From NCBI GenBank assembly GCA_031291445.1, contig JARLJA010000098.1, positions 51,963-115,962 of the forward strand: DNA of 64,000 bases, read 5' to 3'. This document shows positions 24,401 through 41,696 of the stretch, one piece after another. The notes under the pieces were generated by a model that did not search any database, was not told the origin of the DNA, and was given only the letters and a program-made list of their open reading frames with translations. The stretch is from Xanthobacteraceae bacterium. Its GTDB lineage: Bacteria > Pseudomonadota > Alphaproteobacteria > Rhizobiales > Xanthobacteraceae. The translations under genes were made by a program, and so were the position numbers. Each line of letters begins with the position of its first letter. Position 1 is the stretch's first letter.

Positions 24401-26842
24401 TCATCGTGCCGGCCCGCCGACCTGCGCACGAAGGCTGTCCACGAATGCGGCGACCGACCGGTCGTCCGGCGCGACCTTGGCAAGCCGTTGCGCATAGTCC
24501 AGCGCCGCCGCAGGATCACCGGCGTCGCGGCTGATGCTGGCGAGCGCCATTAGCGTGTCCCGGTCGGCAGGATGCCTGGCGAGGTTGTCCCGCAACGCGC
24601 CGAGCGCGTCCTCGCGCTTTCCAGCGGAGTTGAGCGCGACGGCATAGACGTAGGCGTATCTCGACTGCTCCGGCGCCAGCTCGGCAGCGCGGCGCAATTC
24701 GCCCAGTGCCGTGTCGGACTGTTTGGCCCGCACCAAAGCGAGACCCAGCGCGTGATGCAGACCCGCATCCCGCGCCGAGGCTTCGACCCCGCGGCGCAGC
24801 ACCTCAATCGCGTCGCCTTCGCGTCCCGACTGCCGGTAGAGATCGGCGAGATTGATCGTCGCCGCCGTGTCCCGCGGGCTGAGCCGCAGCGCCGCCCCGT
24901 ATTCCGCCTCGGCCTCGGCGGTCAGGCCGCGCCGCGCCAGGAAATTCGCCAGCGTGGCGCGAGCCTCGGGCCGGTCGGCATTAAGGTGCTGCGCCGCGAC
25001 GAACTCGTCCGCGGCGCTGGCAAAGCGCTCGCGATCCGCCGCCGGTTGGCTGACGGACGGCATCGCCGCCAGCAGCGCCACCGCCCTGATGCGGACGCCC
25101 CGCACCGGGTCGGACAGCCGCGGGGCCACCAGCGGCCAGAGCTGGTTTGCGGGGATGCCGTCCAGCATGTCGAGCGCGCCGATGCGCACCATTGGGTCAG
25201 GGTCGGCAAGTCCGACACGCGCCGCTGCGAGACTCGCGGGCGACAGGTGGGAGGCCAGTTCGTCAAGCGCGCTGGCGCGCGCAACCGCCGGCGCCTTTCC
25301 GTCCTGCGCGAGCGCGGCGAGCCGCGTGGCGGCGTCCGCCGTATCGGTCCGCGCCGCGTGGAACGCCGCCGCATAGGTCTGGAAGCCGCTGCGCTTCGGC
25401 CCGAACCAGCGCTCGATCGCGGCCGCCGCCCACTGCGGCGGCCTGGCGGCGTGGCAGTCGTTGCAGGTGTTCGGCGTCCCGAGCGTCACCGACAGGTCCG
25501 GCCGCGGGATCCGGAAACTGTGATCGTGGCGGCGGTCGACCGTCATATAAGTGCGCACCGGCATGTGGCACGCCACGCAACCCGGCACGGGATCGGCGCC
25601 GGCATGGTGCGTGTGCGTCACGCTCCCGTAGCTGTCGGCCGCGTGACACTGGGCGCACACGCCGTCGCCGGGCGCGCGCAGCGCTGCGCCGTGCGGCTCG
25701 TGGCAGTCGCTGCAGGTCACGCCCGCGGCAAACATCCTGCTCTGCTTGAACGGGACGTAGTTGTAGGGCTCTTCCACGTCGCGGGCCTGACCGTCGGCGG
25801 TGTAGGTGCCGCGCGAAAGCGGTGCGACCACATGGGTCTGCGACAGCCACCGGCCGGGGACCCAGTCCTCGGCAAAGCCGGCCCGGCGCGCGTGGCACAA
25901 CCCGCAGGTCTCGACCTCCTTGCGCAGCAGCGCCGGCTTCACGCTTCGCTGCGGCTTTCCGGTTTCCGGATCGGCCCGCCACGCGATGCCGGCGCGTTCG
26001 TCGAGATGCGCGACGAGCCCCATGGAGTCGTCCAGCGCCTTGCGGAACGGCCACAGGCTTTGCCGATCATGCGCCCAGCCCACATGCCGCGAGCCCTGGC
26101 CGTGACAGGCCTCGCAGCCGACGCTGATTTCCGACCATGTGGTGTGGAAGCGGTCGCTGGAGGAATCGTAGTTCTTCCGCACGCCGGTCGAATGGCACTC
26201 GGCGCACATGAAATTCCAGTTCTGGTTGAATTTGGTCCAGTGCAGCTCGTCGTCGTGCTTGATGTCATCGTCGGGATAGAGGTGAATCCAGCGTTGGCCG
26301 CCCTTATCCTTTGCCCGGCTGTCCCAGGCCAGTGAGAGCGCCTGGATACGTCCGTCCGGGAATTCCACCAAGTATTGCTGCAGCGGATCGATGCCGAACG
26401 TGTACTTCACTTCGAAGTCGGCGAGCTTGCCGTCCGGCCCGTCCGTCTGAACCAGGAATTTGCCGTCCTTGCGGGAGAAGCGGGACTTGACGCCGTAATA
26501 CTCGAACGTCGCGTCGGCGAAATCGCCGAGCACGGTGTCAGCGGTCGCGTGCTGCATCGCCGCCTTGTGTTGCGATGCACGCCACAGCTTGGCTTCCGCC
26601 TGGTGGCAGGCCCCGCACGTGTCGCTGCCGACAAAGGTGGCGGCGGTCGTTTCGGGCGATCGTGGCGCGAAACCGCCGCCGAGATAGCTTGCTCCCAACC
26701 CGATGGCAACAACGATCGCCGCGGCGACGGCGGCCGCAATCCAGATACCGCGTCTCGATAGCAGGCCGGCATTCGCTGCGCCCGAGGCTCCGTCCACTGG
26801 CGGAGAATCTGCAGGCGCGAATCGGGATCGCTTGCGTGTCAC
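24401..26842 (-). CDS. membrane-anchored octaheme cytochrome c with TPR repeats
   Basis: An ~813-residue protein with an N-terminal transmembrane anchor ('IWIAAAVAAAIVVAIGLGASYL') and then eight CxxCH haem sites: CGACH, CAECH, CEACH, CGLCH, CSDCH, CAQCH, CVACH and CNDCH. After the haem region come short alpha-helical repeats and a run of tetratricopeptide repeats (for example 'PRDTAATINLADLYRQSGREGDAI'). The layout matches periplasmic multihaem cytochrome-TPR proteins, some related to the NrfA/hydroxylamine-oxidoreductase fold, but no specific enzyme is identified. The GTG at 26842 has GGGGAGG before it; the track's GTG at 26884 is the alternative. The substrate or redox partner is unknown. 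Confidence 0.85.
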   Translation of the reverse strand: MTRKRSRFAPADSPPVDGASGAANAGLLSRRGIWIAAAVAAAIVVAIGLGASYLGGGFAPRSPETTAATFVGSDTCGACHQAEAKLWRASQHKAAMQHATADTVLGDFADATFEYYGVKSRFSRKDGKFLVQTDGPDGKLADFEVKYTFGIDPLQQYLVEFPDGRIQALSLAWDSRAKDKGGQRWIHLYPDDDIKHDDELHWTKFNQNWNFMCAECHSTGVRKNYDSSSDRFHTTWSEISVGCEACHGQGSRHVGWAHDRQSLWPFRKALDDSMGLVAHLDERAGIAWRADPETGKPQRSVKPALLRKEVETCGLCHARRAGFAEDWVPGRWLSQTHVVAPLSRGTYTADGQARDVEEPYNYVPFKQSRMFAAGVTCSDCHEPHGAALRAPGDGVCAQCHAADSYGSVTHTHHAGADPVPGCVACHMPVRTYMTVDRRHDHSFRIPRPDLSVTLGTPNTCNDCHAARPPQWAAAAIERWFGPKRSGFQTYAAAFHAARTDTADAATRLAALAQDGKAPAVARASALDELASHLSPASLAAARVGLADPDPMVRIGALDMLDGIPANQLWPLVAPRLSDPVRGVRIRAVALLAAMPSVSQPAADRERFASAADEFVAAQHLNADRPEARATLANFLARRGLTAEAEAEYGAALRLSPRDTAATINLADLYRQSGREGDAIEVLRRGVEASARDAGLHHALGLALVRAKQSDTALGELRRAAELAPEQSRYAYVYAVALNSAGKREDALGALRDNLARHPADRDTLMALASISRDAGDPAAALDYAQRLAKVAPDDRSVAAFVDSLRAQVGGPAR

Positions 26843-26938
26843 CGGCCTCCCCTGCTCCGAGCTTCGCCGCCGCGCGACTGGCACACCGGACGACGCGGCA
26901 GCGGTCGAAACGGGATGGTATCCTTGGCTGGACGCCGA

Positions 26939-29260: not shown

Positions 29261-30866
29261 TCAGTCTTTTGCGGGACCATCGCTTAGCTTGGCGAGAACC
29301 TCGTCCAGGTTGAAGCTCGCCGCTTTCTGCCGCTGCGGGTATTCCTTAAACGTCGTCAGGAAGCCACCCACGTAGCCTTGGGCGGGGACGAACAGATAGG
29401 CATGATCAATCAGCCAGTCGTAGTAGGTATTGGAGGTGACGTCCGCACGCTCATAGGGGTCGGTGCGAAGGTTAAAGATCTTCGGCAGTCGCAGGGTGAC
29501 GAACGGCTCCGACCAGACCCGCATCGTTCCCGGAGCGCGCTGTTCCATGAACACGAACTTCCAGTTGTCGTAGCGCAGGCCTGTCAATTGCTGGTCGTCG
29601 TTGATGTAGAAGAACGACTCGCGCGGACTCTTCGGTGCCTGCCCGGTCAGATAGGGCACGAGGCTGTCACCGTCGAGATTGACCTTGTAGGTCATGTCGC
29701 CAACCTTGTAGCCCTTGAGCAGCTTTTCCTTGACCTCGGTGTCGCCTGCCACCGCGAGCAGCGTCGGCAGCATGTCCAGATGGGCTACGATGTCGTTGGA
29801 CACCGTTCCGGGCTTAATCTTGCCCGGCCAGCGGAACATCGCGGGCACGCGGTAGGCGCCTTCCCAGTTCGAATTCTTCTCGTTGCGGAACGGCGTCATA
29901 GCGCCGTCCGGCCACGAATTCATGTGGGGGCCGTTGTCGGTGCCGTACATGACGAAGGTATTGTCGGCGATTTTCAGATCGTCCAGCACCTTGAGAACCG
30001 TGCCGACGTTCTTGTCATGGTCGATCATGGCGTCGTGATAGGGGCTCTGCCAGCGCCCCGACTGGCCGATGCTCTCCGGCTTGGTATGGGTGCGGAAATG
30101 CATGTGGGTGAAGTTCACCCAGACGAACGCCGGCTTGCCCGCTGCATTCTGCCGTTTGATGAAATCCACCGCGCGGTCGGCGATGTCGTCGTCGGTCGTT
30201 TCCATTCGCTTTTTGGTCAGTGGCCCCGTATCGATGCAGACCTGTTTGCCGACCTTGCCGAAACGCGGGTCGACGGTCGGATCGTCCTTGTCCGAAGCCT
30301 TGCAGTCCATCACCCCGCGCGGTCCGAACTTGGCGTGGAACGCGGGATCCTTCGGATAGTCCGGCAGCTCCGGCTCTTCCTCGGCGTTCAGGTGATAGAG
30401 GTTGCCATAGAATTCGTCGAAGCCGTGCACCGTCGGCAGGAATTCGTTGCGATCACCCAGGTGGTTCTTGCCGAACTGACCGGTCGCATAGCCGAGTGGT
30501 TTGAGCAGTTCGGCAATCGTCGGATCTTCCTTCTGGAGTCGCGGCACCCGGGAGACCTACCTTGGTCATGCCGGTCCGTAGACCGGATTGACCGGTGATG
30601 AACGAGGCTCGCCCGGCCGTGCAGCTCTGCTCGGCGTAGTAGTCGGTGAACATCGCGCCTTCGCTGGCGACACGATCGATATTTGGGGTCTGATAGCCCA
30701 TCAGCCCGCGCGAATAGGCGCTGACGTTGGATTGCCCGATGTCGTCACCCCAGATGATGACGATATTGGGCTTCTTTGGCTGCTGGGCCGCTGCCGGGCT
30801 GCATATCGCCGTCGCGGCCGCGAGCGCTCCCGTGGCTGCCATCAATAAAGCGCGTGACAACATCAT
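29261..30866 (-). pseudogene. arylsulfatase 1, frameshifted
   Basis: The N-terminal frame encodes a signal peptide and '[20 protein letters not shown]', '[15 protein letters not shown]' (CxAxR formylglycine motif) and '[10 protein letters not shown]', then runs into nonsense. The rest of the enzyme continues in another frame from '[17 protein letters not shown]' to the stop at 29261. Compared with the intact paralogue at 34162 ('GLPGAPEGIKKEDP'), exactly five bases are missing between 30539 and 30540: 'GCG (GAGGG)A CTC' would restore A-E-G-L. I place the start at the ATG at 30866 rather than 30881, since a GGAGAAG ribosome site lies in front of it and the sigma-54 promoter would leave too short a leader for the upstream ATG. 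The frames are otherwise intact, so the lesion is recent or a sequencing error. Confidence 0.85.
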
Positions 30867-30901: not shown

Positions 30902-30917
30902 CGCAAGAACCGCGCCA
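30902..30917 (-). promoter_or_regulatory. sigma-54 promoter of arylsulfatase 1
   Basis: On the minus strand this reads TGGCGCGGTTCTTGCG, with GG and GC separated by 10 bases as required for the -24/-12 elements. Transcription would start about 11 bases further left, giving a leader of ~26 bases before the ATG at 30866. An upstream palindrome (31017-31030) is centred 114 bp away. Confidence 0.75.
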
Positions 30918-31016: not shown

Positions 31017-31030
31017 TCCGAAATATCGGA
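31017..31030. promoter_or_regulatory. palindromic activator site upstream of arylsulfatase 1
   Basis: TCCGAAATATCGGA, one copy of the palindrome repeated six more times in this region. It lies 2 bp beyond the stop of the sigma-54 activator gene and 114 bp upstream (centre to centre) of the arylsulfatase 1 promoter. Unlike the other three clusters no strong partner sits 19 bp away; a degenerate half (TCCGAAGTCC, from 30971) is 46 bp nearer the promoter. Confidence 0.75.
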
Positions 31031-31032
31031 GA

Positions 31033-32640
31033 TTACTCCTTTTGCGTAATCCCGAGCTTCTTGATGCGCGAGTCCAGCGTGGTGGGCTTGATATCGAGTT
31101 CCCTCGCCGCGCCGTTGGGCCCACGAATCCGCCAGTTGCATCGCTCGAGCACGCGCAGGATGTGGGCACGCTCGGCCTGGACCAGCGTGCCGTCCGACGG
31201 TCTGACGGCCTGCAACTGGACCGGCTTGTGGGCGAGCTTGACCTGCAATACCGGGCCGCTGGCGAGAATCATCGCGCGTTCGATCACGTTGCGAAGTTCG
31301 CGGATATTGCCCGGCCAGGAATAGTCCGTCAGCGTGGCCATGGAGTCGACCGCGATCTTCTCGATCCGCTTGCCCATCGAAACGCTGAATTCCTTGACGA
31401 AGGTCCACGCCAGAAGCGGAATGTCCTCGCAGCGTTCACGCAGCGGCGGCACCTCGATCGGGAACACGTCCAGCCGATAGAACAGGTCCTCCCGGAACCT
31501 GCCCTCGACGACCGCCTGCGCGAGATTCCTGTTGGTCGCCGCGATGACGCGCAAATCGACCTTGATCACCCGCGAGCCGCCCAGGCGCTCGAACTCGCCC
31601 TCCTGCAGCACGCGCAGCAGCTTCGGCTGAAGTTCGAGCGGCAGCTCGCCGATCTCGTCGAGGAAGATGGTCGAACCGTCGGCAATTTCGAAGCGGCCGG
31701 CTTGCCGGGCGTTCGCGCCGGTAAAGGCGCCCTTTTCGCGACCGAACAGTTCGGACTCGATCAAGGCCGCGGGCAACGCCGCGCAATTGACCTTGATCAT
31801 CGGACGAGCTTTCCTGGCGCTTGCATCGTGAATACACTGGGCCACGACCTCCTTGCCGCTGCCGGTTTCGCCAAGCAGCAGAACCGTGGCGTTGGTGTGC
31901 GAGACCTGGGCGACCTCCTCGATCACGGCCTGGAAACGCGGCGAATGGCTCGTCAATCCCGGCGAAGGTCTGCCACGGACCACCTGTCGCAGATAGGCAT
32001 TCTCGTGCTCGAGGCGGTCCTTGAGACTCTTGACCTCGGCCAGCGCGGCCTTGAGCTGCTGGTCGGACCGAGTGCGTACGTGTGCCTGCGCGATGATTTC
32101 GCCCATCAGCCTGGCTCGATCGATCATCGCGGCTGGCCAGCGCCGGGTTTCCCGGAAAGCTTCCAGGCAGATCAGCCCGTATGGACGTCCGTCGATACGA
32201 AGCGGAATGCTCGCGTGGGAACGAAGACCAAAGCGTAGCGCATGCGCGGCTTCGGGGGCGGCCTCGGGCGGAAGGTCGTCGAACGATTGACGCAGGATCA
32301 TCTCGCCCGCGATCATCTTGCTATAGTACCAGGGAAAACTTGGGGACAGCTTTCCGAGCCGCACCGGCGGGATACCCTCCACTGCGTTCGAGGACAGCAC
32401 GCCGATGGAGCCATCTTCCCAGAATTCGCAAAAGGAGCCCCGGTCGAACCCGAGGAATTCCCGAATTTTCAGCAACGCATTCTGGAGTCTGCTCTCGAAC
32501 TCCTCGCCCGGGAAGTTCGCGAATTGCGACGACAGTTCGACAAGCAGGCGCTCGAAAGCGATGCGCTCGTCGACCGGCACTTCTGATCCGGCGCTTGATT
32601 TCGCCGGCTTGTTGAAGGGAATGGCGTCCGCCATGTGCAC
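31033..32640 (-). CDS. sigma-54-dependent enhancer-binding protein with GAF sensor domain
   Basis: A 535-residue activator. Residues ~25-190 form a GAF-type sensory domain ('[16 protein letters not shown]', '[17 protein letters not shown]'), followed by a coiled linker. The AAA+ domain has Walker A '[14 protein letters not shown]' (about 255-268), the sigma-54-contacting loop 'GAFTGA' (304-309), Walker B '[11 protein letters not shown]' and the arginine-finger block '[14 protein letters not shown]'. The C-terminal Fis-type helix-turn-helix is '[20 protein letters not shown]', close to the FhlA type. It is flanked on both sides by genes with sigma-54 promoters and a shared palindrome, so it is the likely activator of all four. 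Its signal is unknown. The start is a GTG at 32640 or the ATG at 32634. Confidence 0.93.
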
Positions 32641-33368: not shown

Positions 33369-33698
33369 CTAACTGCCGGCGCTGCGGTGAAGGGCTAGCA
33401 CGTCGACCCCCTCCTCGCGTTCCACCGTATCGACGCGGACCACCGGTGCCTCGCTGGAAAGCTCGATCGCCCCTACCAGGGCGCTGAGCTTTGCGGAATC
33501 GAGATTTCGGTCGAACTGGTCCCTCGTCTCCCACTCCTCGATCAGCAGAACGGACTTTCGCCGGTCGAGGTCCGAGAAAAGACGGGCGGAAAGACAGCCC
33601 GGCGAAACGCGTGTCGGCTCAAGAACCGATACCAGCGCACGCAGCAGCGCTGTCCGCACCTGGTCCGGCGCCACGATCTCCAGCGAAAACACGATCAA
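33369..33698 (-). CDS. ABM-domain (antibiotic biosynthesis monooxygenase-like) protein
   Basis: A small dimeric alpha/beta-barrel type protein of 109 residues; 'KSVLLIEEWETRDQFDRNLD' is the conserved ABM segment. The ORF track starts at 33884, which would run through two regulatory palindromes. I choose the TTG at 33698: it gives the standard ABM N-terminus (M-I-V-F-S-L-E-I), has a GAAGGA ribosome site eight bases upstream and lies ~23 bases after the predicted start point of a sigma-54 promoter. ABM proteins include quinone monooxygenases and haem-degrading enzymes; no haem-binding or catalytic residue singles out a function. Confidence 0.75.
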   Translation of the reverse strand: MIVFSLEIVAPDQVRTALLRALVSVLEPTRVSPGCLSARLFSDLDRRKSVLLIEEWETRDQFDRNLDSAKLSALVGAIELSSEAPVVRVDTVEREEGVDVLALHRSAGS

Positions 33699-33731: not shown

Positions 33732-33747
33732 CGCAAGAAGCGCGCCA
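33732..33747 (-). promoter_or_regulatory. sigma-54 promoter of the ABM gene
   Basis: Minus-strand sequence TGGCGCGCTTCTTGCG, with GG-N10-GC spacing, nearly identical to the arylsulfatase 1 promoter (TGGCGCGGTTCTTGCG). It is 34 bases before the TTG start at 33698 and 111 bp from the centre of the palindrome pair at 33835-33867. Confidence 0.8.
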
Positions 33748-33834
33748 ATCGCGAATGCGCACGGACAAAGTAGAAAACTCGTATGAAACCATCGGAGTAT
33801 CGAACCCGTTCCGAAGCCGCATCGGCGGCCGGAC

Positions 33835-33867
33835 TCCGAAATATCGGACTTTGTCCGAAATGTCGGA
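33835..33867. promoter_or_regulatory. tandem palindromes upstream of the ABM gene
   Basis: TCCGAAATATCGGA (33835-33848) and TCCGAAATGTCGGA (33854-33867), 19 bp centre to centre, about two helical turns, so two activator dimers could sit on the same DNA face. Position relative to the ABM promoter is typical of sigma-54 enhancer sites. Confidence 0.82.
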
Positions 33868-33964
33868 GCCGGTCGGGAATTCATTGGCGAGGTCTGCCTG
33901 GCGCCACCGACAATGGCAGCGAGTTACGGTTGCCGGCCGCGAGCGATGGGCCGCAATTGTAATC

Positions 33965-33997
33965 TCCGATATTTCGGAGCATCTCCGAAATGTCGGA
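33965..33997. promoter_or_regulatory. tandem palindromes upstream of arylsulfatase 2
   Basis: TCCGATATTTCGGA (33965-33978) and TCCGAAATGTCGGA (33984-33997), again 19 bp apart and centred 121 bp upstream of the arylsulfatase 2 promoter. Together with the pair at 33835-33867 they fill the 463-bp gap between two divergent genes, each pair lying on the far side from its own promoter. Confidence 0.82.
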
Positions 33998-34094
33998 TAC
34001 GAAAACGTCGGCGCTCACCATCGCGGTCGTTCATCGTTCCGGTAACCGCTGATTTCACAAGGCGTTTTCATTCGATGGCGCGATTCCGACCGGC

Positions 34095-34110
34095 TGGCCT
34101 GTTTCTTGCG
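34095..34110 (+). promoter_or_regulatory. sigma-54 promoter of arylsulfatase 2
   Basis: TGGCCTGTTTCTTGCG with GG-N10-GC spacing. Transcription would begin near 34121, leaving a 40-base leader with an AGGAGG ribosome site before the ATG at 34162. Confidence 0.8.
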
Positions 34111-34161: not shown

Positions 34162-35784
34162 ATGAAGCATGCGATACGAAAAACGACAAAAAATATGGTC
34201 CTTGGAGGGATTGCGGCGGTCGCTGCAGTTGTTCTCGCTGGCGCTCCGGCGAGCGCCCAGCAGTCAAAAAAGCCGAACATCCTGATCATCTGGGGCGACG
34301 ACATCGGCCAATTCAACCTCAGCGCCTACAATATGGGGATGATGGGCTACAACACGCCGAATATCGACAGCATCGCTCAACAGGGCGCGATCTTCACCGA
34401 TTGGTATGGTCAGCAGAGCTGCACCGCCGGACGCGCGGCGTTCATCACCGGGCAGTCGCCGATTCGGACCGGCCTCACCAAGGTCGGCCTGCCGGGCGCA
34501 CCCGAGGGCATCAAGAAGGAAGATCCCACGCTCGCCGAGCTGCTCAAGCCGCTGGGCTACGCCACCGGCCAGTTTGGCAAGAACCATCTGGGCGACCGCA
34601 ACGACATGCTGCCCACCGTTCACGGGTTTGATGAGTGGATGGGCAATCTCTATCACCTCAATGCCGAGGAGGAGCCGGAGAACGTCGACTACCCGAAGGA
34701 TCCGGCGTTCAAGGCGAAATTCGGCCCACGCGGCGTATTGCACTGCTTCGCCACCGACAAGGACGACCCGACCGACGATCCTCGTTTCGGCAAGATGGGC
34801 AAGCAGAAGTGCGATGACACCGGCCCGTTGACCAAAAAGCGCATGGAGACGGTCGACGAGGAGGTGACAGCGGGGGCGATCAACTTCATGGACAAGGCGG
34901 TGAAGGAGCAGAAACCGTTCTTCGTCTGGTGGAACTCGTCTCGCATGCACGTCTTTACGCACCTCAAGAAGGAAAGCGAAGGCAAGACCGGCCTGGGCAT
35001 CTTCGCCGACGGCATGGTCGAGCATGATGGCCAGGTCGGTCAATTGCTGGCCGAGCTCAAGGCGCTGGGCGTCGATAACAACACCATCGTCATGTATTCC
35101 AGCGACAATGGTGCCGAGTCACTGACCTGGCCTGACGGCGGCACGACGATGTTCCGCAGCGAGAAGAACACGCCATGGGAGGGCGGCTTCCGCGTTCCCA
35201 CGATGATCCGCTGGCCCGGCGTCATCAAGCCCGCCACGGTCATCAACGATTTGGGCGCCCACGAGGACATGCTTCCGACTTTGCTCGCGGCGGCCGGCGA
35301 CACCACGGTCACCGAAGACCTGCTGAAGGGCCGGAAGATCGGCGACATGACCTACAAGGTCCACCTCGACGGCTATAACCTGCTGCCTTTCTTCAAGGGC
35401 GACGTGAAGGAAACACCACGCCAGGCGTTCATCTACTGGACCGACGATGGCAGCGTCGCCGCCCTGCGCTACCGCAACTACAAAGTATTGTTTCTGAAGC
35501 AGAATGCCGTCGGTCTTCGGGCCTGGCAGCATCCCTTCGAGGAACTGCGCGCGCCGCTTCTGACCAATCTGCGCATGGATCCGTTCGAGCGCGCGGAAGA
35601 AGAGAACGCGATGGACTATCAACGATGGTACATCGAGCACATGTACGCGTTTGCGCCCTCGGCGGCATATGTCGCCGGCTGGCTGCAAAGCTTCCGGGAG
35701 TTTCCACCGCGCATGAAGCCCGGCAGCTTCAGCCTCGACCGAGTGATGGAAGCAGTGACGGCACCCGCCAAAGGAAGCAATTAG
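34162..35784 (+). CDS. arylsulfatase 2 (periplasmic, intact)
   Basis: A 540-residue sulfatase with a signal peptide ending 'AGAPASAQ'. The metal-binding aspartates are in '[10 protein letters not shown]' (D46, D47). The formylglycine motif is C87 in '[10 protein letters not shown]' (CxAxR), to be modified by a formylglycine-generating enzyme not present in this window. The block '[20 protein letters not shown]' carries the conserved lysine and histidine, and 'VMYSSDNGAE' supplies the later metal aspartate and asparagine. It is the intact paralogue of the frameshifted gene at 29261-30866. It probably releases sulfate from aryl or alkyl sulfate esters; the substrate is unknown. A sigma-54 promoter and a palindrome pair lie upstream. 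Confidence 0.92.
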   Translation: MKHAIRKTTKNMVLGGIAAVAAVVLAGAPASAQQSKKPNILIIWGDDIGQFNLSAYNMGMMGYNTPNIDSIAQQGAIFTDWYGQQSCTAGRAAFITGQSPIRTGLTKVGLPGAPEGIKKEDPTLAELLKPLGYATGQFGKNHLGDRNDMLPTVHGFDEWMGNLYHLNAEEEPENVDYPKDPAFKAKFGPRGVLHCFATDKDDPTDDPRFGKMGKQKCDDTGPLTKKRMETVDEEVTAGAINFMDKAVKEQKPFFVWWNSSRMHVFTHLKKESEGKTGLGIFADGMVEHDGQVGQLLAELKALGVDNNTIVMYSSDNGAESLTWPDGGTTMFRSEKNTPWEGGFRVPTMIRWPGVIKPATVINDLGAHEDMLPTLLAAAGDTTVTEDLLKGRKIGDMTYKVHLDGYNLLPFFKGDVKETPRQAFIYWTDDGSVAALRYRNYKVLFLKQNAVGLRAWQHPFEELRAPLLTNLRMDPFERAEEENAMDYQRWYIEHMYAFAPSAAYVAGWLQSFREFPPRMKPGSFSLDRVMEAVTAPAKGSN

Positions 35785-37696: not shown

Positions 37697-38785
37697 ATGA
37701 TACCGGCGAAGGTTGCCACAGCAGTTGCTTTAGCGTTCGTGTCGCTTGCGTGTTTCGGATGCAGCAATCGGCCCTTGCGTGGCGTACTCGTTCCTGTCGC
37801 CGAAGCGCCGGTGGGAACATCACGCGTCCCCATTCTGGTCGCGACGACGCGCCAGCGCTCCGCTCCCAACGATGGAGAAATGTTCAGCGGCGAGCGCGGC
37901 GAAACCTCATATGCCGCGATCTCCATTTCCATCCCCCCGGACTCGGCGCGGGAGATCGGCCAGATCCAATGGCCCACGACCCTCCCCGGCGATCCGCAGC
38001 GCAATTTCGTGACCCTGTCGGCAAACTACATCGACAAGCCGGCCTTCCTGGCGTCGCTTTCCGCTGAAGCGAAGCAGTCCCGCCACGGCAAGGTTCTCGT
38101 CTTCGTGCACGGCTTCAACAATCGCTTCGACGACGCGGTCTATCGCTTTGCCCAGATCGTTCACGATTCGAAATCACCTGCCGTTCCGGTGCTGTTTACC
38201 TGGCCCTCGCGGGGCGAGACCCGGCTGCGCGCCTATACCTACGACCGCGAGAGTGCAAATTATTCGCGCGACGCGCTGGAAGAGCTTCTCGACACGCTGG
38301 GCCGCAATCCCAATGTCACCGAGATCAACGTTCTGGCGCACTCCATGGGAAACTGGGTTACGCTGGAGGCGCTGCGCTCGCGCTATATCCGCCCAGGCCG
38401 ATTTACCGACAAGCTCAAGAACGTGCTCCTGGTCGCCCCCGACGTCGACGTCGATGTGTTCAGGACCCAGATTCGCCGGATGGGTCCGCAGCGACCGCGG
38501 TTCTCGCTTTTCGTCTCGCAGGATGACCGGGCCCTGGCCCTGTCGAAGACCATCTGGGGCGACGTGCCGCGCCTCGGCGAGGTCAACCCGGAGCAGGAAC
38601 CCTACCGCGAGGAATTCGCGCAGGACCGCATCGAGGTGTTCGACCTGACCGCATTGAAGAAGCCCGGCGACGACGCGCACGGCCGCGCCTTCGAGGACAT
38701 TACATCCGTCTCGGCCATGCTCAAGCAGCGGCTTTACGAGGGGCAGACCATGTCCGAGACTTCGCCGGCAAACTTGATCGAGTGA
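37697..38785 (+). CDS. alpha/beta hydrolase of the DUF900 family, probably exported
   Basis: A 362-residue protein with an N-terminal hydrophobic export signal ending in a possible lipobox-like cysteine ('SLACFGCSNRP'). The hydrolase core shows the oxyanion block 'VLVFVHGFNNRFDDA', 'VLFTWPSRGE' and the nucleophile elbow 'VLAHSMGNWV' with serine in A-H-S-M-G. It fits DUF900 (COG4782) esterase-like proteins. The substrate is unknown. It converges with the barrel protein gene at 38819. Confidence 0.88.
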   Translation: MIPAKVATAVALAFVSLACFGCSNRPLRGVLVPVAEAPVGTSRVPILVATTRQRSAPNDGEMFSGERGETSYAAISISIPPDSAREIGQIQWPTTLPGDPQRNFVTLSANYIDKPAFLASLSAEAKQSRHGKVLVFVHGFNNRFDDAVYRFAQIVHDSKSPAVPVLFTWPSRGETRLRAYTYDRESANYSRDALEELLDTLGRNPNVTEINVLAHSMGNWVTLEALRSRYIRPGRFTDKLKNVLLVAPDVDVDVFRTQIRRMGPQRPRFSLFVSQDDRALALSKTIWGDVPRLGEVNPEQEPYREEFAQDRIEVFDLTALKKPGDDAHGRAFEDITSVSAMLKQRLYEGQTMSETSPANLIE

Positions 38786-38818: not shown

Positions 38819-39757
38819 TTAAAACGTCAGGTTCAGCCGGGCGGCGGTCTTGAAGTCGTAGACCGGGTAGTCCTTGATGATCGGCACGCTCAGTTCCAGC
38901 GACACCGTGAGATTGTCGGCAAGCTTGCGGCCGAGCTGGAAGTCGAACGGAAGGAACAGCCGCCCGGTCTGGCCGAATATCGGATCGCCATAGTTCACGC
39001 GAATGTCCGGGCTCGGGTAGAAGGTGACGAACCAGCGGTCCGGGAGTGCGATGCGCCAGACCGGCGCGAACCGCAGGTTGCTGATGTTCTTCTTCGACGG
39101 ATCTCCTGCGAAGCTCTGGTCGTACCAGAGCTGGGGCTCGAAATAGCTGCCATCGCTGATCTCCGGCATCGCATAGCGCACGCCGACCACCGGCATGATC
39201 TGCCATTTGCCGCTGCCGAGGCCGAGGCTGGAGTCGCCGGTCGGGGCGTAAAGCCGGGTGCCGAAACCGATGGTCCAGCGCGCATCGATCTCGCGGATGA
39301 GCACAGCCTGGGCATGGACGTCGCCGATGCCATTGACGTACTCCCCGGACGGATTGGCGGCGCTGACGGGGTTTTTCGCGTCGAACGGCAGATCCTCGCG
39401 CAGCGCCAGCTTCCAGGGACCGGGGAGATCGATCCTCTGGTCCGCGCGCAGCTTCAGGGTCACGGTCGTGACCTCGTGGGTCGTGCCCAGCTGGCCGCCG
39501 CTGCGCGGTGCGGTGACGTATTGATCGTACAACTGGATGGTATTCACCGGCCGGGCGAAGTCCTCACCGGTGTTGTCGCCCCGGTCCGTTGGGGCCGTGG
39601 ATTGCACCGCGGCCACAGCGGACGACGCGGCCGCAGCATCCTGTCCGGCAGCAGCCGGGTGCAACGGCCACGCCACCAGTGGCGCCAACGCGAGGACGCT
39701 GCGCAAGCGCAATACGCGCGCGATACCGGGGCCCTGCATCCTGTATCCTGCCACCAC
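38819..39757 (-). CDS. outer-membrane beta-barrel-like protein
   Basis: A 312-residue protein with an export signal ending near 'HPAAAGQ'. The rest alternates short amphipathic stretches such as 'WTIGFGTRLYAPTGDSSLG' and 'RWFVTFYPSPDIRVNY', and it ends in phenylalanine ('ARLNLTF'), the usual outer-membrane insertion signal. The pattern resembles transporter-like proteins annotated as 'MetA-pathway of phenol degradation'. The palindrome pair at 39913 lies upstream, but no acceptable sigma-54 promoter was found on this strand, so membership of the regulon is doubtful. Confidence 0.65.
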   Translation of the reverse strand: MVAGYRMQGPGIARVLRLRSVLALAPLVAWPLHPAAAGQDAAAASSAVAAVQSTAPTDRGDNTGEDFARPVNTIQLYDQYVTAPRSGGQLGTTHEVTTVTLKLRADQRIDLPGPWKLALREDLPFDAKNPVSAANPSGEYVNGIGDVHAQAVLIREIDARWTIGFGTRLYAPTGDSSLGLGSGKWQIMPVVGVRYAMPEISDGSYFEPQLWYDQSFAGDPSKKNISNLRFAPVWRIALPDRWFVTFYPSPDIRVNYGDPIFGQTGRLFLPFDFQLGRKLADNLTVSLELSVPIIKDYPVYDFKTAARLNLTF

Positions 39758-39912: not shown

Positions 39913-39945
39913 TCCGATATGTCGGAGAGGCTCCGACATATCGTA
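39913..39945. promoter_or_regulatory. tandem palindromes upstream of the His-rich peptide gene
   Basis: TCCGATATGTCGGA (39913-39926) and TCCGACATATCGTA (39932-39945, one mismatch in the last arm), 19 bp centre to centre. Their centre is 123 bp upstream of the sigma-54 promoter at 40045. This cluster is 6 kb from the others, showing that the pattern is not a local duplication. Confidence 0.8.
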
Positions 39946-40044
39946 GTTTCCCGTCGAGACAGGCCATCGGGGATATTTCGTTGCGACCCGTCCACCTCAT
40001 TGGTTTTGAGAACGTTTTGAACATCGGCGATGTTGCTTCGCAGT

Positions 40045-40060
40045 TGGCCTGCTTATTGCA
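40045..40060 (+). promoter_or_regulatory. sigma-54 promoter of the His-rich peptide gene
   Basis: TGGCCTGCTTATTGCA with GG-N10-GC spacing, the copy closest to the consensus -12 box (TTGCA). The predicted start point is near 40071, about 22 bases before the ATG at 40093. Confidence 0.8.
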
Positions 40061-40092: not shown

Positions 40093-40272
40093 ATGAAACT
40101 GATTGGCGTAGGACGTATTATCCTGGCGGCTGCAGTGCTGTATGCAGCGTCGTCTTCGCTGTCGATCGACAGTGCCCAGGCAAATATCGGTACGACGCAA
40201 GGCCATGGGGGCATTAGCCACCATCACAAGCATCACCATCCACAGCATCATCTGCCGAAGGCTGCCCGCTAG
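40093..40272 (+). CDS. small secreted histidine-rich peptide
   Basis: A 59-residue product starting at the ATG at 40093, with GGGAG nine bases upstream; the track's earlier start at 40030 would precede the promoter. A signal peptide ends near 'IDSAQA', leaving a mature peptide of about 29 residues with nine histidines, including 'HHHKHHHPQHH'. No other domain is present. Such a run can bind Zn, Ni, Cu or haem, so a periplasmic metal buffer or delivery role is possible, but this is inference. It is under the same sigma-54/palindrome arrangement as the arylsulfatases. The OpgC gene starts 236 bp downstream and could be co-transcribed. Confidence 0.75.
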   Translation: MKLIGVGRIILAAAVLYAASSSLSIDSAQANIGTTQGHGGISHHHKHHHPQHHLPKAAR

Positions 40273-40508
40273 AGTCTCCTGGAGTGCACGTCGGTGGTCA
40301 TTGATCAACGTCGATGTCGAACGCGGCACTACTCCGAACCTGAGGAACGCATCGTGAAGGGCGGCCTCAACGGTCGGTACGAAGAGGTGTTGTCCCGGTC
40401 TCACATACGCGATTGGCCGCACAGGCAGTCGCAACAGGTCTTGCGATAGGCGCTCGATCGGTTGTTTCAAAATCGATCGGGCGCTGTTGCGCGTCAACGG
40501 AGTGCGCA

Positions 40509-41696
40509 ATGGAAGTGATTCTTCCTCCCAAGGGTCGCGATCTGCGGCTCGACCTGTTTCGTGGCCTGGCGAACTGGGTCATCTTCATCGGTCACATCCC
40601 CAACAACGTCGTCGCCTTGCTGCTGCTCGGCACGGGACGCTACGGCTTCAGCGACGGGGCCGATATGTTCGTGTTCATTTCGGGTTACACCGTGGCATTT
40701 GCATTTGCGCGAATGATGATGGACCGCGGCATGGTGATCACTGCCACGCGGATCATCAAGCGAACCTGGCAGATCTACGTCGCGCACGTGCTCCTGTTCG
40801 TCATCTATCTGGTGGAGATCGGCTATTTCGGCCAGAAATTCGGCGAGGCGGAGTATGCCAACACCTTCAACGTCCAGATTTTTCTCGATCACCCGGCGGA
40901 GGTCCTGTTCGAGGGCCTGATCCTCAAGTTCAAGCCCGTCAACATGGACGTGCTTCCGCTCTACATCGTGCTGATGCTCGCCAGTCCCCTGCTGCTGCGG
41001 GCGATGCTGCGCTCCCGCAACATCACCCTGCTGGCGTCGATCGCCCTCTACTTCGCGGCCCGGCAGTTCGGCTGGAATCTGCCGTCCTATCCGGCCGGGG
41101 GCTGGTACTTCAATCCGTTCACATGGCAGCTCCTGTACGTCACCGGCGCCTGGTTTGCCGTCGGCGGCGCGGTCGACCTGCTGCCGTTCATCCGCTCGCG
41201 CGCGCTGCTGGTCCTGGGCGTGGGCTACCTGGTGTTTGCCTTCCTGATCGCCGTGGCCAGCCGGCACCCCGACCTCGCGCAGCTGTTTCCGGCCGGGCTC
41301 GTCAGCCATTTCAATCCGGCCGAAAAGCCCAGCCTTCCGCCCTATCGTTTCCTCCACTTCATTGTCATCGCGTTGCTGCTGGTTCGGCTCATCCCCCGCG
41401 GGTGGCCTGGGCTCGAGTGGCGCATGTTCCGGCCCGCCATTCTTTGCGGACAGCGGTCGCTGGAGGTCTTCTGCGTCGGGATCTTCCTGTCCTTCGCAGG
41501 ACACTTCGTGCTGCTCGAGGTGTCGGATACGATCTGGATGCAGATCGTCGTCAGCGTGGTCGGCGTCGTTTTGCTGTCGTTGCTGGCGTGGTACCGGTCC
41601 TGGTCGATGCAACAGGAAAAGGCGCCGAGGCTGGCAATCCCGCCGGATCCGGCGCGTAGCGAGGCCGGGCTGCCTCCGGCGGCAGCGCGCAGCTGA
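40509..41696 (+). CDS. opgC: OpgC-family membrane acyltransferase (copy 1)
   Basis: A 395-residue integral membrane protein with about ten hydrophobic helices, starting at the ATG at 40509 (MEVILPPKGRDLRLDLFRG). The N-terminal 'RDLRLDLFRGLANWVIFIGHIPNN' carries the conserved histidine of the acyltransferase-3/OpgC group; 'MFVFISGYT' and 'PYRFLHFIVIA' follow. OpgC succinylates periplasmic osmoregulated glucans. A clear paralogue lies at 56789-57982. The copy here differs in its C-terminal tail and lies next to the sigma-54 regulon. Confidence 0.9.
   Translation: MEVILPPKGRDLRLDLFRGLANWVIFIGHIPNNVVALLLLGTGRYGFSDGADMFVFISGYTVAFAFARMMMDRGMVITATRIIKRTWQIYVAHVLLFVIYLVEIGYFGQKFGEAEYANTFNVQIFLDHPAEVLFEGLILKFKPVNMDVLPLYIVLMLASPLLLRAMLRSRNITLLASIALYFAARQFGWNLPSYPAGGWYFNPFTWQLLYVTGAWFAVGGAVDLLPFIRSRALLVLGVGYLVFAFLIAVASRHPDLAQLFPAGLVSHFNPAEKPSLPPYRFLHFIVIALLLVRLIPRGWPGLEWRMFRPAILCGQRSLEVFCVGIFLSFAGHFVLLEVSDTIWMQIVVSVVGVVLLSLLAWYRSWSMQQEKAPRLAIPPDPARSEAGLPPAAARS

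Follow-up and report, generated by a model that had tools for sequence, protein, structure and literature searches.

The window, by which we mean the whole 64-kb stretch of DNA that was analysed, carries a gene for an enhancer-binding protein (bEBP), two arylsulfatase genes, a gene with an ABM domain (PF03992) and a gene for a small secreted peptide that is followed by one for an OpgC-family membrane acyltransferase. Four clusters of a short palindrome lie among these genes, each with a predicted sigma-54 promoter at its side. The features are listed in Table 1.

Table 1. Genes, palindromic sites and promoter elements of the proposed regulon in the window
Feature	Position	Strand	Basis or remark
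TPR/multihaem cytochrome, DUF900 hydrolase, PF13557 protein (window members of the recurring neighbourhood)	24401-26884, 37697-38785, 38819-39757
Arylsulfatase 1, proposed target	29261..30866	-	frame broken near codon 110
Sigma-54 -24/-12 element TGGCGCGGTTCTTGC, arylsulfatase 1	30903..30917	-	0 mismatches; 100 bp from 31017
Single palindrome TCCGAAATATCGGA, candidate enhancer site (UAS) of arylsulfatase 1	31017..31030		2 bp past bEBP stop
bEBP gene (GAF - sigma-54-activation AAA+ - Fis-type HTH), proposed activator of four promoters	31033..32640	-	domain matches
ABM (PF03992) gene, proposed target	33369..33698	-	promoter footprint
Sigma-54 -24/-12 element TGGCGCGCTTCTTGC, ABM gene	33733..33747	-	perfect match; kept in 7 aligned ABM promoters
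IHF-like element, weaker, before ABM promoter	33782..33794	-
Candidate tandem UAS pair, 33835-33848 + 33854-33867	33835..33867		88 bp from ABM sigma-54 promoter
Candidate tandem UAS pair, 33965-33978 + 33984-33997	33965..33997		98 bp from arylsulfatase-2 sigma-54 promoter
IHF-like GTAACCGCTGATT + TTTTC tract, between UAS and arylsulfatase-2 promoter	34042..34069	+	position-aware test
Sigma-54 -24/-12 element TGGCCTGTTTCTTGC, arylsulfatase 2	34095..34109	+	perfect match
Arylsulfatase 2, proposed target	34162..35784	+
Candidate tandem UAS pair, 39913-39926 + 39932-39945 (1 mismatch)	39913..39945		100 bp from 40045 promoter
IHF-like element, weaker, before 40045 promoter	39993..40005	+
Sigma-54 -24/-12 element TGGCCTGCTTATTGC, small His-rich peptide and OpgC	40045..40059	+	perfect match
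59-aa secreted His-rich peptide (SHHHKHHHPQHH), first gene after 40045 promoter	40093..40272	+
OpgC-family membrane acyltransferase, gene next after peptide	40413..41696	+

Palindromic pairs and predicted sigma-54 promoters in the window

With at most one mismatch, the 14-bp palindrome TCCGAnATnTCGGA starts at positions 31017, 33835, 33854, 33965, 33984, 39913 and 39932 and nowhere else in the 64 kb; the copy at 39932 deviates from it at a single position. Allowing two mismatches raises the count to 12, where 2.7 are expected, and none of 100 shuffles reached 12. These counts exclude chance as the origin of the palindromes. Six of the seven copies are arranged as three pairs whose members repeat at exactly 19 bp, as the original prediction had it, and on the scale of the whole genome 19-bp pairs with no more than one mismatch are confined to this cluster. 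Two pairs stand back to back in the 463 bp between the start of the ABM gene (33698) and that of arylsulfatase 2 (34162), and each of these divergent genes has a pair of its own, again in agreement with the prediction. The further claim that a pair spans nearly two helical turns and presents two dimers on one face of the DNA holds as to the nearness and fails as to exact alignment: at 10.5 bp per turn, 19 bp makes 1.81 turns, approximately 69 degrees short of two. Two dimers so placed would be rotated against each other by about 70 degrees, and "one face" is thus only approximate. The paired sites may be bound cooperatively, as the original prediction proposes from their strict spacing.

The sigma-54 -24/-12 pattern TGGCnnGnnnnTTGC is matched perfectly at five places in the window. 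All four palindrome clusters have such a match that points outward, at distances of 100, 88, 98 and 100 bp (clusters in coordinate order), and in 200,000 random placements never more than two clusters were served in this way (three of the four were reached in none). The fifth match, at 39661 on the minus strand, was taken as chance; it lies 238 bp from the pair, apparently where the PF13557 gene encodes its signal peptide. Judged by their sequence, the other four are predicted to be sigma-54 promoters, a component that the original prediction had missed, as it had the bEBP of the cluster as the likely activator, the IHF-like element and the fixed gap between pair and promoter. Given these outward elements and the adjacent bEBP gene, the palindromes match what would be expected of bEBP UASs in where they stand, how many there are and what accompanies them, and their placement is not that of sigma-70-type operators.

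Since palindromes alone do not reveal the class of protein that binds them, they might instead be operators of another dimeric regulator, with the sigma-54-like elements being coincidental or independent. We regard this as very unlikely: perfect outward elements accompany four of four clusters at a fixed gap, the module recurs in seven other genomes, and the one gene shown to follow the motif from genome to genome encodes a sigma-54 activator. Sites some 90-100 bp upstream of the promoter would also be too far away for a classical repressor or a class I/II activator.

The adjacent enhancer-binding protein

The bEBP encoded next to the single palindrome has an N-terminal-to-C-terminal order of GAF, AAA+ and HTH domains. 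Its GAF domain matches PF01590 (E=3.6e-8, residues 49-186; a GAF domain is likewise present in the ortholog from genome G588), its AAA+ domain matches PF00158 (Sigma54_activat, E=1e-70) and its C-terminal Fis-type HTH matches PF02954 (HTH_8, E=5e-6, residues 486-529). The GAFTGA loop is intact here; of seven aligned proteins, six have it and the one from G588 reads GAYTGA instead. The KPTTL segment of the HTH is invariant in all seven. The best NCBIfam match is FhlA, through the AAA+ and HTH domains. Scores stay far below the curated equivalog cut-offs for FhlA (385 against 830 bits), NorR (347 against 476 bits) and NifA (371 against 529 bits). By its domain architecture the protein is assigned to group 3 of the bEBPs, yet it is, as far as these profiles tell, none of FhlA, NorR and NifA.

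Co-occurrence of motif and regulator in relatives

Among 200 genomes of the family, searching with the bEBP sequence identified, besides the window, one full-length ortholog (G040, 70% identity), and a class-level search added one more from another family (G588, 47-48% identity). Protein searches at the genus, order and phylum levels detected no further ortholog, and a search of plasmids returned only paralogs with less than 60% identity. Searching 399 family genomes for the pattern of the pair detected several pairs in each of G000 (the genome of the window), G040, G1403, G1433 and G1461 and one exact pair in G1453; the control with the reversed pattern gave three single matches. Full-length orthologs of the bEBP (63-70% identity) are encoded in all four of the newly found pair-positive genomes (G1403, G1433, G1461 and G1453). 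No ortholog was detected in any of the four genomes with a single weaker pattern match (G1293, G1318, G004 and G124). One of the latter, G1293, has one module without a detected ortholog, in an assembly that is 81% complete. Motif and bEBP appear to track each other both ways, the protein search having covered part of the 399-genome set.

Since the genome has no fewer than nine strong sigma-54 activators, two others of which lie on the same contig, a different bEBP might bind these sites, the neighbour at 31033-32640 being incidental. This we consider very unlikely, given orthologs in four of four pair-positive genomes tested later and in none of four weak-match genomes. At several loci, furthermore, a pair starts approximately 10-13 bp after the bEBP gene (within about 20 bp overall), and G1433 has two copies of the bEBP gene with pairs beside each. 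It is very likely, on this pattern of co-occurrence, that the cluster-encoded bEBP is the activator acting at these sites. Its ortholog in G040 (L047:12324-13940, minus strand) is interrupted by an in-frame TAA at Walker B (FLD*IGELP); the four enhancer modules of that genome look intact.

In total, 24 distinct promoter-linked pairs were collected from eight genomes, including one pair in G588 that was found by reading, and all have the 19-bp period. The refuting condition that the original prediction set itself, a spacing that is not kept in orthologous regions, is not borne out: 21 of these pairs lie outside the window, in six alphaproteobacterial genomes with a bEBP ortholog (47-70% identity) and in one without, and the spacing is kept in each. 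G040 contributes four pairs, each 98 bp from a sigma-54 promoter, and the pairs of G588 lie 87-89 bp from promoters that read TTGGCACGnnTCTTGA. Five genomes (G1403, G1433, G1461, G1453 and G1293) were located by the 19-bp pattern itself and the spacing there is partly ascertained. The unbiased sample consists of the eight pairs in the window, G040 and contig L169 of G588, which were located by protein and show 19 bp only, together with a scan of the loci at all distances. A free-spacing pair scan of 84,980 species, which did not address orthologs, gave scattered, apparently unrelated matches with no 19-bp excess among the matches listed.

When seven ABM promoters are aligned, conservation is concentrated in the pair, the -24/-12 element and the start of the ABM gene, and the sequence between them is largely unconserved. 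In the window, and again in relatives (L204, L205 and L207), the neighbourhood of the regulon includes genes for a TPR/multihaem cytochrome, a DUF900 hydrolase and an outer-membrane-like protein with a PF13557 match.

Proposed target genes

The recurrent core of proposed targets across genomes consists of ABM and arylsulfatase genes. In G040 the proposed targets are ABM, OpgC, DUF308 and an 82-aa secreted protein upstream of an arylsulfatase; the OpgC homolog there, 44% identical to that of the window, has a pair and a sigma-54 promoter of its own. Those in G588 are an ABM gene with an arylsulfatase gene after it, a secreted protein and a periplasmic protein that, read by eye, resembles toluene-tolerance proteins. 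In G1403 they are a periplasmic binding protein, two DUF992 proteins, ABM, arylsulfatase, DUF2092 and a PAS histidine kinase. ABM and arylsulfatase are targets in both G1433 and G1461, as is PF13557 in G1433. Arylsulfatase 2 and its homolog in G1461 (L208:13273-14883) are 93% identical, while the bEBPs are only 70% identical; either the enzyme evolves far more slowly than the regulator or it has moved separately.

The arylsulfatase-1 unit departs from this pattern. Its reading frame is broken near codon 110 (window positions 30540-30560, minus strand, with GLPGAAT on one side), and since the remainder is 89% identical to the ortholog in G1433, the break would be either recent or a sequence error. 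The original prediction had seen one strong site and a degenerate half upstream of this gene. The single site is there, and is perfect; the half was rejected because it is out of register (only 3 of 12 positions agree at +19 and 1 of 12 at -19). The site at 31017 begins where several other loci begin a full pair, and its 100-bp gap to the promoter is that of a proximal site. The unit appears to be incomplete, in the way that losing one 19-bp repeat through recombination between the copies would leave it.

Geometry of the candidate enhancer modules

When the loci were scanned for pairs at every distance between 12 and 62 bp, 26 were counted at 19 bp, three at 21 bp and one or two at each other distance; two of the three 21-bp cases (L205 2019/2040 and L209 7314/7335) look real. 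The oriented pair consensus is CTCCGAnATTTCGGAG-nnn-CTCCGAnATnTCGGAG. The spacer hardly varies, reading GnnnC in most copies, and this makes the pair a larger palindrome, CTCCGAnATnTCGGAGnnnCTCCGAnATnTCGGAG, and bEBPs act as higher oligomers. Each 33-35-bp pair might accordingly be one composite operator for a tetramer or higher oligomer, a reading that is compatible with the sigma-54 part of our proposal. We think it unlikely: the single palindrome at arylsulfatase 1 and the two 21-bp pairs make the halves look separable, and the conserved G and C that flank each 14-mer may just extend the site to 16 bp.

The gap between the pair and the TGG of the promoter falls into two groups, 87-89 bp in seven modules and 94-101 bp in 21 modules (98 bp in 12 of them), and the two values differ by about one helical turn. 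Three pairs (L181 2330, L204 7549 and L205 13043) lie between divergent sigma-54 promoters with both gaps of a permitted length; in relatives, one pair can apparently serve two divergent promoters. The pair in L181 (2304-2372, in G588) is part of a far longer, almost perfect inverted repeat (gataccgaagtccacgacatttcg ... cgaaatgtcgtggacttcggtatc) that is flanked by the divergent promoters. In G1403, three palindromes stand in a row with spacings of 19 and 21 bp (L205:1990-2065), with no sigma-54 element within 300 bp, and a single site on contig C185 (L048) likewise has no sigma-54 element nearby.

Sigma-54 promoters are marked by GG at -24 and GC at -12 with fixed spacing. Nearly all of the 28 modules have at most one mismatch to TGGCnnGnnnnTTG(C/A), and the one at L207:12139 has two. 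In the G588 modules (L169 and L181) all sigma-54-like promoters read TTGA rather than TTGC at -12, possibly a lineage-specific preference of sigma-54.

The intervals between pair and promoter in these 28 modules contain an IHF-like element, YAAnnnnYTGATY, followed about 8-10 bp later by a TTTTC-like tract. It starts 50-53 bp before the TGG in 18 of the 28 modules, where the best of 2,000 shuffles gave nine, and the best match averages 7.07 of 9 positions against 6.24 +/- 0.12 in shuffles. Most copies have one to three mismatches to the consensus, and the strict consensus finds only one. No IHF-like element is present at this position in the arylsulfatase-1 promoter. Overall, position and sequence are suggestive of IHF.

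Discussion

From the motif and its spacing, the promoter elements, the domains of the bEBP, the co-occurrence of regulator and sites and their conservation, we consider it highly probable that the window holds a local sigma-54 regulon, in which the bEBP of the cluster acts on tandem enhancer sites. The bEBP would bind each 16-bp palindrome CTCCGAnATnTCGGAG as a dimer, and two dimers 19 bp apart would assist the assembly of the AAA+ oligomer. DNA bent at the IHF-like site, approximately 52 bp before the promoter, would let the bEBP meet the sigma-54 polymerase at the -24/-12 element 88 or about 98 bp away, contact being made through GAFTGA and followed by ATP-driven opening. A ligand of the GAF domain would in this way trigger the arylsulfatases, ABM and OpgC with the peptide, and additional envelope and periplasmic genes in relatives. 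As a guess prompted by the target enzymes, the inducer is perhaps a sulfate ester or a similar compound, and the physiological role of the regulon is perhaps the use of sulfate esters.

Group 3 (GAF-domain) bEBPs such as NorR, NifA and FhlA use upstream sites and sigma-54 promoters, often with IHF, and IHF-assisted looping is usual for bEBPs in general (PMC7175178). The protein of the window shares with them the GAF sensor, the AAA+ domain with GAFTGA and the Fis-type HTH. A TGT-N10-12-ACA operator type has been reported for FhlA and NifA (PMC6615313), whereas the operator described here is not of the TGT/ACA type and the proposed targets comprise arylsulfatases, ABM and OpgC. Having more than one UAS, and a gap of around 100 bp, is common (PMC6615313, PMC4641369). 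The local sigma-54 regulons of Clostridiales and Desulfovibrio resemble that of the window in having the bEBP next to its targets, multiple UASs per target and UASs located 100 bp or so, or more, from the promoter (PMC6615313, PMC4641369). Unlike in those regulons, the UAS period (19 bp) and the gap (88 or about 98 bp) here scarcely change from promoter to promoter or from genome to genome.

SftR, AtsR and SfnR control sulfatase or organosulfur genes. SftR is a LysR-type regulator, and SfnR, also a sigma-54 activator, acts on sulfone/sulfonate genes in Pseudomonas. A literature search combining arylsulfatase with sigma-54 or bEBP returned nothing relevant, and no published sigma-54 activator for such an alphaproteobacterial cluster was found. 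The unit in the window is most likely an undescribed member of an ordinary kind of gene-control unit with an unusually regular geometry. More tentatively, and with the odds against it, the enhancer could be quantised, the 19-bp pair, the IHF-like bend at about 52 bp and the 88- or approximately 98-bp gap together specifying one geometry of bEBP oligomer and loop, in which the spacer would be a machine part. The 19-bp pair may also be the nucleus that seeds the hexamer.

The analysis proposes a regulator, an operator, a promoter type and a set of targets for an unnamed alphaproteobacterial arylsulfatase cluster. With approximately 24 natural pairs, two promoter distances that lie one turn apart and exceptions in the form of 21-bp pairs and a single-site promoter, these loci would offer a ready-made series for testing how strict enhancer geometry is.
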